DNA from: an uncultured Bacteroidales bacterium
GTDB taxonomy: Bacteria > Bacteroidota > Bacteroidia > Bacteroidales > UBA932
Length of the DNA: 64,000 bases
NCBI GenBank assembly: GCA_900316245.1
Contig: ONCE01000017.1
Span: 1-64,000, forward strand
Direction: 5' to 3'
Positions 25,973 to 59,347 of this stretch are shown here, piece by piece. The number at the start of each line of letters is the position of its first letter. Position 1 is the stretch's first letter. The notes below the pieces were generated by a model. The model saw only the letters and a list, made by a program, of their open reading frames with translations, did not search any database and was not told the DNA's origin. Both the position numbers and the translations under genes were made by a program.

Positions 25973-27931
25973 TTATTCTTCAAAGACGTATCCGGCACCA
26001 CGGGTGACCAAAGCCTCGCCATAGGGACCCAACTTGCGGCGGATGCGGGTAACGGCGGCATCTACCGTGCGGGAAGTGGCCAGGGCATCATCGGGCCAGA
26101 GGGCCTCCAGGAAATCGCGGCGGGCCCACTCCTTGTTGGGATTCTCCATAAACAGGCGGAGCATCTCGAACTCGGGCTTGGTGAAGGGAATGGTTTCACC
26201 GTCCACCATCACGCGCTTGCCGTCCGTATCCAGCTGGACACCCTTGAAGCGCAGGCTGTTCCTGACCAGGCCCAGACGGGCTTCCACCACGTTGATGACG
26301 TAGTCTCCGGTCTTTTCGAACTCAGAGATGAGGTCCATATAGACGGTACCGTTCTCGTAATCGTACGTATGGTTGTCCAGATCCACGATGTTCTGGCGCT
26401 TGAGCTGGTTGCGCAGACCGTTGATCCTGAGCTCGATTTCTTCGGACTTGGAGAAGTTGTTTTCTTCGCGGGGACCCTTGAGAACCACGTTCATCTGGGT
26501 CAGAGCTTCATCTACCAGAGCATACATCTGGATGATGTTCTGCTCCTGCTGCTCAGTGAAGGTTACCTTGTTCTCCCGCTTGCGGGCCAGGATGCGGGCC
26601 AGGTTGAAGCAGCTGTCACCCACAGACTCCAGTTCTCCAATCTGACGGAGCATGGCGCGGAGTTTTTCCTTGGAATCGTCCGAGAGGTGGGCGTCTCCCA
26701 CCTGTCCCAGGTACAGACCAATCTCCTTCTCCATACGGTCGCTCAGGTCTTCGTTCTTCTCTATGCGGTCGAAAATCTTCTTGAAGTCTTCATCCTCCTG
26801 GGCCTGCGAAAGGTCCTTGACCAGGCCGAAGGTAAGCTGCATCTTTTCGCCAAAGACATCAATTTCCTTCTGCGCCTGCAGGATGGAGATTTCCGGCGTC
26901 TTCATAATACCGCTCTTGATAAACTGCAGACGGAACTCGTCCTCCTTCTCTTCCTTGCGGGGAGGGATGAGGAAGCACACCAGCTTCTCTATCTGAGGAA
27001 TGAACCAGACCAGAATGGCGGTGTTGATGAGGTTGAAGGCCGTATGGAAGGCCGCCAGCGCAAACGAAAGCTGGACGGGCGACTGGCTCTCGGCGTTGGG
27101 ATCCAGCCCCACGAGGCCGCAGACCATTCTTACGAAGGGGAAGAAGAAAATGAGAACCCAGATAACACCGAATACGTTGAACACCAGGTGGGCCAGAGCC
27201 GTACGGCGGGCCTGCACATTGGCATTCATAGCAGCCAGGTTGGCGGTAAGGGTGGTACCGATGTTCTCACCCATCACCAAGGCGATACCCTGATAGATGG
27301 AGATGGCGCCCGTAGAGCAAAGCACCATGGTAATGGCCATCAGGGCGGCCGAAGACTGAACCATGGCGGTAAGGATGGAACCTATGAGCAGGAACAGCAG
27401 GATGGTTCCGTAATTGGTCTTGAAGCTGGCGAAGAAGTCTACCACGGCCTGGTTGCTGGCCAAATCCATTTCCGTTCCCGTCTGTTTGAGCATTCCCAGT
27501 GCAAAGAGCAGGAAGGACAGGCCGAAGAGGAAGTCTCCAATATAGCGGTGCTTTCCCGTCTGGATAAGGATGATGGCTATCAGGAAGGCGGGCCAGACCA
27601 GGTTGGTCACGTTGAAGGAGAAGCCGGCCGACATGATCCAGGCGCTCATGGTGGTGCCGATATTGGCACCCATAATGATGGAAATTGCTTGTTGTAACGT
27701 TAAGAGGGCGGCATTGACGAAGGAAACTGTCATCACCGTGGTGGCGGCCGAAGACTGGACGGCGACGGTAACCAGGGCACCTGTAAGAATACCGGAAAAA
27801 CGGTTGGTGGTCATAGCTCCCAGCAAGTGACGGAGTTGCGGGCCGGCCATCTTCTGCAGGGCCTCACTCATCACCTTCATGCCATATATCAGGAGGGCGA
27901 TGGAGCCCAGAAGTTTCAGAACGATTAACAT
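25973..27931 (-). CDS. Na/Pi cotransporter fused to PhoU-like and OmpR-type DNA-binding domains
   Basis: This 652-residue protein has three parts. Residues about 1-325 are a sodium/phosphate cotransporter (NptA/YjbB type) with two inverted halves, each with QSSA (about 59 and 192) and a GANIGTT or GENIGTT motif (88-94 and 221-227). Residues about 340-555 form a PhoU-like helical region. Residues about 560-652 are a full OmpR/PhoB winged helix: FTKPEFEMLRLF, SRTVDAAVTRIRRKLG, TRGAGYVFEE. Usual relatives end after PhoU, so the fusion is unusual. The frame is unbroken. The start at 27931 is set by the promoter 20 nt upstream. Inferred: phosphate transport or PhoU state may control gene expression from the membrane. 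Confidence 0.9.
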   Translation of the reverse strand: MLIVLKLLGSIALLIYGMKVMSEALQKMAGPQLRHLLGAMTTNRFSGILTGALVTVAVQSSAATTVMTVSFVNAALLTLQQAISIIMGANIGTTMSAWIMSAGFSFNVTNLVWPAFLIAIILIQTGKHRYIGDFLFGLSFLLFALGMLKQTGTEMDLASNQAVVDFFASFKTNYGTILLFLLIGSILTAMVQSSAALMAITMVLCSTGAISIYQGIALVMGENIGTTLTANLAAMNANVQARRTALAHLVFNVFGVIWVLIFFFPFVRMVCGLVGLDPNAESQSPVQLSFALAAFHTAFNLINTAILVWFIPQIEKLVCFLIPPRKEEKEDEFRLQFIKSGIMKTPEISILQAQKEIDVFGEKMQLTFGLVKDLSQAQEDEDFKKIFDRIEKNEDLSDRMEKEIGLYLGQVGDAHLSDDSKEKLRAMLRQIGELESVGDSCFNLARILARKRENKVTFTEQQEQNIIQMYALVDEALTQMNVVLKGPREENNFSKSEEIELRINGLRNQLKRQNIVDLDNHTYDYENGTVYMDLISEFEKTGDYVINVVEARLGLVRNSLRFKGVQLDTDGKRVMVDGETIPFTKPEFEMLRLFMENPNKEWARRDFLEALWPDDALATSRTVDAAVTRIRRKLGPYGEALVTRGAGYVFEE

Positions 27932-27950: not shown

Positions 27951-27981
27951 CAAAGATAATTTTTTTTGGCCAATCGGCAAA
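27951..27981 (-). promoter_or_regulatory. Promoter of the cotransporter-regulator fusion gene
   Basis: On the minus strand TTTG (27981-27978), a 19-nt spacer and TATCTTTG (27958-27951), an exact consensus match, 19 nt before the ATG. Confidence 0.75.
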
Positions 27982-28451: not shown

Positions 28452-29180
28452 ATGAAAAAGATTCTGATTCTTACCCTCCTGCTGTGCCTGCAACTGGGCA
28501 CCTTTGCGCAGGACAAGATTATCCCCTATCTCGCAGAAGAAGAACTGCCCGACGCCGTTCTCTGCGTTCCCGCCCCGCCGCAGGACCCCAGTACCGAGTT
28601 TGACCACGACATCCTCCGCTATATGTGGGGAAAGCAGCAGCGCAAGGACTCCCTCCGCCTGGAAATGGCCATCCGGGATGCCGTCTGGAATCTGGACTCC
28701 ACCTTGGTCATCCTGGGAGAGCCCTTCGGCCTTAAGATTTCCAAAGAGGGAACTCCGGCCATTTACGAAGTCCTGACCCGTGGCGTCACCACCATCGAGG
28801 CCATCCGCGTCAAGCCCAAGGCCCACTACTTCCGCACCCGCCCCTTCGCGTATTTCAAGGAGCCTTCCATCTTCCCGCAGGACGATGACTGGCTGGCCAA
28901 AGAGGGTTCCTATCCCTCCGGTCACACCATCCGCGCCTGGGCCTGTGCCCTCCTGATGGCCCAGATCCATCCCGGCACGGCCGAGGCCGTCTATGCCCGG
29001 GCTTGGGAATCCGGCGTGAGCCGCGTCATCTCCGGCTGCCACTGGCAAAGCGACGTGGACGCCAGCCGTCCCATAGCCAGCATGGGTTATGCCCGGCTGC
29101 AAATCTCACAGGAGTTCCAGAAACAAATGGCCAAGGCACAGGCCGAATACATCCGGATAAAAAATAAGGAGGGTAAGTAA
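28452..29180 (+). CDS. Class A acid phosphatase (PAP2 family), periplasmic
   Basis: This 242-residue secreted phosphatase (signal peptide 1-20) carries all three parts of the PAP2 signature: Lys123..Arg130-Pro131 (KAHYFRTRP), PSGH at 155-158 and SRVISGCHWQSD with Ser190-Arg191, His197 and Asp201. Class A enzymes of the PhoN type release phosphate from many organic esters in the periplasm. Its stop codon lies inside a bidirectional terminator. The nearby phosphate cotransporter fits a phosphate-scavenging role. Confidence 0.9.
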   Translation: MKKILILTLLLCLQLGTFAQDKIIPYLAEEELPDAVLCVPAPPQDPSTEFDHDILRYMWGKQQRKDSLRLEMAIRDAVWNLDSTLVILGEPFGLKISKEGTPAIYEVLTRGVTTIEAIRVKPKAHYFRTRPFAYFKEPSIFPQDDDWLAKEGSYPSGHTIRAWACALLMAQIHPGTAEAVYARAWESGVSRVISGCHWQSDVDASRPIASMGYARLQISQEFQKQMAKAQAEYIRIKNKEGK

Positions 29181-59307: not shown

Positions 59308-59315
59308 CAAAGTTA
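59308..59315 (-). promoter_or_regulatory. -7 element of the 58631 barrel gene
   Basis: TAACTTTG on the minus strand, 38 nt before the ATG at 59269. Confidence 0.5.
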
Positions 59316-59347
59316 CGATTTTTTTACAATATAACCACAAATGGGGA

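Follow-up and report, generated by a model that had tools for sequence, protein, structure and literature searches.

A Na/Pi cotransporter-PhoU protein that ends in a predicted PhoB-type DNA-binding domain: a candidate one-component Pho switch in uncultured Bacteroidales

How a phosphate transporter signals a shortage of Pi to PhoU, and PhoU to the transcription machinery, is a long-standing question. In the classic Pho system, the signal passes from the transporter to PhoU and then to PhoR, which phosphorylates PhoB. The locus that is described here raises the question of whether a transporter, PhoU and a DNA-binding domain could work together in one protein, because a single open frame of 652 residues encodes all three. 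The gene is located in the window, by which we mean the whole stretch of 64,000 nucleotides that was analysed (contig ONCE01000017.1), and belongs to a 2.24-Mb draft genome of an uncultured Bacteroidales bacterium (35 contigs, 92.8% complete). Its features are collected in Table 1.

Table 1. Positions of the fusion gene, its parts and nearby elements in the window
Feature	Position	Strand	Remarks
Whole fusion gene	25973..27931	-	ATG at 27931, stop 25973-25975
First Na_Pi_cotrans repeat	27485..27895	-	Residues 13-149
Second Na_Pi_cotrans repeat	27161..27487	-	Pfam
PhoU-like helical domain	26273..26896	-	About residues 346-553; Pfam PhoU best stretch 369-447; helices in the model; Foldseek match PhoU 2i0m
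PhoB/OmpR-type winged-helix DNA-binding domain (predicted)	25982..26257	-	Residues 559-650
Recognition helix SRTVDAAVTRIRRKLG	26027..26074	-	Residues 620-635; diverged from ...RTVDVNITRIRKK... of PhoB-like relatives
Wing and C-terminus TRGAGYVFEE	25976..26005	-	Residues 643-652; strands in the model
Candidate Bacteroidota -7 promoter element TATCTTTG	27951..27958	-	Pho box absent from its usual upstream place
PAP2-family phosphatase gene	28452..29180	+	Pfam PAP2 1.6e-12; divergent from the fusion gene, one gene between

An earlier, sequence-only reading had described one unbroken frame with a Na/Pi cotransporter containing two QSSA repeats, a PhoU part and, at the end, a complete OmpR/PhoB winged helix, and the domain search that it proposed bore out each of these parts. 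No frameshift or stop was found at the junction between PhoU and the winged helix. Pfam detected Na_Pi_cotrans in two stretches (E 2.8e-54), PhoU (E 1e-8; PF01895 at 35.8 bits against a cut-off of 23.5) and a full-length Trans_reg_C (residues 578-650, profile positions 1-77 of 77, E 7.3e-15), and the recognition helix and the wing were as described. Residues 1-325 passed the cut-off of TIGR00704 (219 against 210.1 bits) and include both QSSA motifs, whereas the protein lacks the identity of a stand-alone PhoU (27.9 bits with TIGR02135, cut-off 130). The best NCBIfam match of the C-terminus was the Bacteroidetes PhoB model NF053854 (residues 558-651, profile positions 131-225 of 225), and its 87.5 bits are under the model cut-off of 270, as half a PhoB would be expected to score. 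Neither Response_reg (Pfam, E up to 1) nor HisKA or HATPase (Pfam) was detected in the protein. A membrane part, assigned as such by its family, and a DNA-binding domain are thus placed in one chain.

The predicted structure agrees with this assignment. Among solved sequences, the best match of the last 100 residues was the effector domain of E. coli PhoB (1qqi, 5.7e-12), and the first five Foldseek rows were PhoB effector domains, including PhoB on pho box DNA (1gxp), followed by PhoU 2i0m in row six. The AlphaFold2 model, which was built from 52 sequences, has a mean pLDDT of 76 and a pTM of 0.43, with about 77-90 in the DNA-binding domain and mostly 45-85 in the membrane part; the individual domains of this model are credible and their mutual arrangement is not. 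Residues 559-650 were modelled as four strands, three helices and a two-stranded wing, starting about five residues after the last PhoU helix. The structure prediction of the C-terminus, also proposed by the sequence-only reading, therefore returned a PhoB-like fold, and the PhoB-like nature of the domain is supported by both its sequence and its predicted fold.

Because the assembly behind the window is a draft in 35 contigs, an assembly artefact or a frameshift that fused two genes has to be considered, although it is hardly conceivable given the relatives. The identical in-frame fusion is carried by at least 48 of the 300 sampled genomes of the genus, among the matches listed. This number consists of 46 genomes with a match from residue 5 or earlier to the end of the domain and two partial ones (G117 and G320), and as the genus matches extend down to about 433 bits, weaker fusions may add to it. 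About eight genomes have two fused genes or one for each of the two clades described below (e.g., G003, G088, G109, G173 and G081). Moreover, 37 of the 80 loci that were kept from named records are fused, one of which is labelled Prevotellaceae (L262, 56% identity); the named records closest to the query are metagenome genomes of Bacteroidales, most of whose titles mention ruminants. Relatives in other genomes match over the full length at 59-93% identity, hence the fusion is neither chance nor misassembly, and both of the joined parts are under purifying selection. The architecture is real and not an artefact.

Outside its genus, the fusion is rare. Among the matches listed, it was found at full length in the window genome and in G685, a member of another family, in the sample of the order (393 genomes), and in the window's own genome and none other in the sample of the phylum (395 genomes); both searches retained matches with E <= 1e-100 and scored no more than three candidates from any one genome. 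The survey of this architecture in Bacteroidales thus revealed a fusion that is conserved in the genus and, among the matches listed, rare elsewhere. The earlier statement that the usual relatives end after PhoU also held, as the unfused ones among the matches listed stop near query residue 555.

Compared with known systems, the protein shares parts with several families. Na/Pi-cotransporter II-related proteins with PhoU (TIGR00704, NF037997), whose unfused representatives are common, have the same cotransporter followed by PhoU and end there, whereas the fusion continues into a DNA-binding domain. With the PhoB response regulator (OmpR/PhoB; NF053854, TIGR02154, 1gxp/1qqi), it shares the winged-helix effector domain, and relatives of the window protein keep the recognition helix of the genus PhoB together with a box of 11-bp period just upstream of the promoter. 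However, the receiver is absent, which places the fusion outside the PhoB response regulators; it would not be phosphorylated by PhoR, and its input would be the transporter and PhoU in the same chain. The fusion fits, by its sequence, within the broad class of membrane one-component regulators. ToxR and CadC, as treated in parts of a survey of transmembrane transcription regulators (PMC10269533), likewise have a membrane part and a winged helix in one chain, but in the fusion the membrane part is a whole carrier, and the passages of that survey considered here mention no transporter-type member. A transporter domain acts as the sensor in Ks-Amt5 (PMC5764959) and CbrA (PMC7096432), which signal via a histidine kinase and a separate regulator, while the fusion joins the transporter directly to the DNA-binding domain. 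The sequence-only reading knew of no regulator with a phosphate transporter as its sensor; in the open-licence literature, we found none either, nor any description of a transporter that is joined straight to a DNA-binding domain.

The origin of the fusion was analysed using a tree of the transporter part with 131 rows, i.e., 53 fused, 73 unfused and five with phoB directly downstream. In this tree, the fused state has to change 16 times; supported branches force at least nine of these changes, and the tree carries long-branch warnings. The fused rows form two groups, A (32 rows, including the window) and B (21 rows). In the tree of the DNA-binding domains, which had the genus PhoB as comparison and no wider outgroup, the fused domains lie among those of the genus PhoB. 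The first tree of the domains split clades A and B, but A and B together scored higher (p-AU 0.554 with 33 rows and 0.729 with 31 rows); a single origin was not rejected, and we discarded two independent fusions as an explanation. The arrangement that was found in L117, L118, L119, L120 and L121, where an unfused transporter-PhoU gene has phoB directly downstream, is a plausible source of the fusion. Likely deletion scars were recognised in three of the 78 rows without the fused domain. L045 and L046 end in ...VAEARLG-YSFQE, where the end of PhoU is joined to the last residues of the fused domain (...GFGYSFQE), while L011 ends in ...VVEAR-IRRKLSP..., a junction within the recognition helix whose reading is less certain. 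These scars suggest that those lineages once had the fused form and later lost the domain by deletion. Judged from the sequences, losses of the domain have been repeated within the genus.

Many fused genes are preceded by a direct repeat whose period is 11 bp, TTAARATTNTGTTACAAT. When counted without a consensus, a 6-of-7 repeat of period 11 was present in 28 of 57 upstream regions (mean of 9.6 in shuffled sequences); period 9 was also raised (25/57, shuffled 8.8), while periods 10 and 12 were raised little, at 18/57 against 10.5 and 12/57 against 9.4. The box at up to four mismatches, with a consensus derived from those very upstream regions, was found in 28 of 70 fused, two of four operon-type and none of 98 unfused genes (rates in shuffled sequences: 0.8%, 0% and 0.9%, respectively). 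Its presence followed the recognition helix. VDVNI, a string that is common to five operon PhoB sequences, defined a class that was set, like the consensus, after inspecting the upstream regions and tails, and the box was found in 27 of the 31 fused genes of this class, one of the 37 with other helices and none of the 94 unfused genes, once two fused, four operon and four unfused rows under 50% identity had been dropped. A strict 12-position core gave a similar picture (26/31, 0/37 and 3/94, or 4/98 in the fuller set), whereas a looser threshold weakened the contrast (28/31 against 11/37 for other helices). Seven independent pairs could be drawn from the tree, of which typically five pointed the same way, none against and two showed no difference (median p 0.0625); the fused rows alone gave six pairs (p 0.125). 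The association between helix and box is therefore strong in counts and weaker, only suggestive, after correction for kinship.

For the -7 element we take the consensus TAnnTT[TC]G as that of the Bacteroidota promoter. Such an element was not found for one of the 27 boxed genes, and in the 26 that could be measured the distance from the start of the box was 53 bp in 21, 52 bp in two and 54 bp in three. Four of these 26 genes belong to clade B, and their box is located at about -68 from the start codon compared to -79 to -83 otherwise. As the distance to the start codon varies while that to the -7 element is fixed, the box appears to be tied to the promoter, as an activator site would be.

A scan of 36 genomes (12 fused with VDVNI, 12 fused with another helix and 12 unfused without PhoB) yielded 22 matches at up to two mismatches compared to 15 for the reversed pattern. 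Thirteen of them have at most one mismatch. Ten of these precede a fused gene by 78-79 bp, another precedes a 158-residue frame that belongs to the same family in G107, and the remaining two are at other places and have no evident target gene. Strong boxes are thus nearly confined to the fused gene, and weaker sites could escape the scan. The G107 site (L288, G107:C3:5612) is a strong box 79 bp before the short frame, and the fused gene of that genome has a diverged helix and no box. The strong boxes that are not before a transporter are L278 (G028:C55:25620-25637) and L293 (G003:C28:17928-17945), with zero and one mismatch, respectively. Around phoB of the PhoB-bearing genomes, 40 loci, some of which overlap, contained 14 sites at up to three mismatches compared to two with the reversed pattern, which makes it very likely that the consensus is the PhoB site of the genus. 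The pst operons of PhoB-bearing genomes were rejected as support, since their six loci had no clear box; of the three sites that were detected, all weak, two overlap the end of a coding frame from within. Also rejected was a match in the window at 59313-59330 (+), which has two mismatches, as do nine of the 22 matches, and is at chance level given the 22 compared to 15 for the reversed pattern. It lies about 90 bp before a frame that presumably resembles FeoA/FeoB. Passages of a study on B. fragilis (PMC3547664) place ferrous iron transport among the PhoB-dependent genes.

The window genome has exactly one Trans_reg_C, the one in the fusion, which is the only OmpR/PhoB-type domain of that draft; it also has eight receiver domains, all outside the fusion protein, and seven HisKA domains. 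A full-length PhoB orthologue (236 bits or more, the next match having 168) was present in four of the 48 fused genomes compared to 85 of the 252 others (Fisher 2e-4, uncorrected for kinship), and among hand-picked high-quality genomes in 2/26 compared to 45/92. The fusion would stand in for PhoB in its genomes; in the four that also have PhoB, the latter could use the box. PstB above its cut-off was found in four of 48 genomes, all within the 12 that were PhoB-bearing, and in none of the 24 fused or 12 unfused genomes, which were separate groups. The window genome (a draft, 92.8% complete) likewise has no PstB above the cut-off and its PHO4 match is weak, hence the fusion protein may be its main Pi carrier. 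In G316 (G316:C26:46963-48813) and G279 (G279:C10:57738-59588), which represent the L316/L279-type genomes, phoB adjoins a PHO4-type gene of about 768 codons, i.e., about twice the 350-position PHO4 profile.

The reading that we favour, and consider fairly probable, is that the single chain of transporter, PhoU and DNA-binding domain works as a one-component Pho switch and activates the gene that encodes it. The cytoplasmic PhoU of a Na/Pi cotransporter would be followed directly by what was once the DNA-binding domain of a PhoB, and neither the PhoR kinase nor the PhoB receiver would take part. Pi or the state of transport would change PhoU, thereby freeing or pairing the DNA-binding domains, and at low Pi two domains together would occupy a pair of 7-bp half-sites immediately upstream of the promoter, activating transcription without the protein leaving the membrane. 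In the relatives with a PhoB helix, the main target would be the fused gene itself, so that the carrier would set its own dose. In the window lineage, where the helix is altered and there is no longer a Pho box, the target of the domain would probably be another one. The architecture, its conservation, the kinship with PhoB, purifying selection and the geometry of box and promoter in the relatives can all be read from the genomes, whereas we infer that the protein binds DNA, that it activates and does not repress, that Pi is its signal and that it acts in the membrane, with activation at low Pi taken from the parallel with PhoB and the place of the site. The broader proposal, that the carrier became its own transcription activator, that the Pho regulon shrank to about one operator, the one before the fused gene itself, and that offshoots, the window's included, were re-aimed or are losing the domain, has in our estimate an even chance of being right.

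The helix of the window's own copy, SRTVDAAVTRIRRKLG, is identical in G000, G146 and G239, and the gene of the window and those of its two nearest relatives, G146 and G239, have the -7 element and no Pho box; altogether, 37 of 68 fused genes do not have a PhoB-like helix. Presumably, by E. coli PhoB numbering, the window helix keeps R193, T194, D196, R201 and R203, while V197 and H198 are alanines, and these substitutions suggest a changed specificity rather than a loss of DNA binding. In the window clade, the dN/dS of the domain (0.074-0.083) resembles that of the transporter part (0.069-0.130), which argues that the domain is kept by selection. The domain of this lineage therefore looks functional and its target is probably altered. 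The direct link from phosphate to promoter that the sequence-only reading proposed stands in part: as judged from sequence, canonical autoregulation through the Pho box is well supported for the VDVNI relatives, with their box at a fixed place in the promoter, and unsupported for the window gene, with its changed helix and no box.

It is possible, if short of likely, that in the window lineage the fusion controls other genes, with the changed helix having a new operator and regulon, a reading that is compatible with the one-component Pho switch. The constancy of the helix and the constraint on the domain speak for it, as does a different block that L113 and L114 share at the position of the box, although the DNA surrounding this block is equally alike; the block is not in the promoter of the window gene, and no operator was found. 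That the domain was once a regulator, has little effect today in lineages like that of the window and is a passenger being lost from a protein that works as a transporter seems unlikely to us. The diverged helices, the repeated losses with their deletion scars, the missing box in the window clade and the weaker constraint in a few diverged pairs (L115-L032 0.47, L095-L098 0.27) would agree with it, but the dN/dS of the domain was below 1 in each of 27 pairs (0.023-0.473), in the window clade it is like that of the transporter part, and the fold is intact in the model. We regard it as rather improbable that the domain represses transcription or that proteolysis sets it free from the membrane, because the box is located at a fixed distance upstream of the -33/-7 region, the usual place of an activator, and the short stretch after the last PhoU helix leaves little linker for a protease. 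Among the genomes with two fused genes, G003, G088 and G173 (L108, L109 and L110) have one copy with a PhoB-like helix and another that is diverged and without the box, and these pairs look as if they were specialised.

The surroundings of the gene were less informative. Two tRNA genes follow the fusion gene in the window. Clustering of the flanking frames gave no shared partner gene across 57 fused loci, and a conserved neighbourhood was therefore rejected; the largest clusters cover 8-10 of the 57 loci, several of them being reverse-frame shadows and others ABC-F or unrelated genes. A homologue of the PAP2 phosphatase (about 61% identical) is the next gene upstream, with the same orientation, in L028, L031, L189 and L201 of clade A and L094 of clade B, and the PAP2 phosphatase is a possible functional partner of the fusion. 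Its recurrence as a neighbour is in keeping with a role in Pi scavenging. In L172, a PAP2 homologue lies downstream of an unfused gene.

As far as we found, this would be the first carrier that is itself a predicted DNA-binding regulator, and it is also new that fused genes with a PhoB helix have a Pho box of 11-bp period before them. With the kinase and the receiver removed, the step from transporter to PhoU to DNA could be studied in a single protein, for which the unfused relatives are natural controls. In these uncultured gut bacteria, the import of phosphate and the switching of genes may be combined in one protein.
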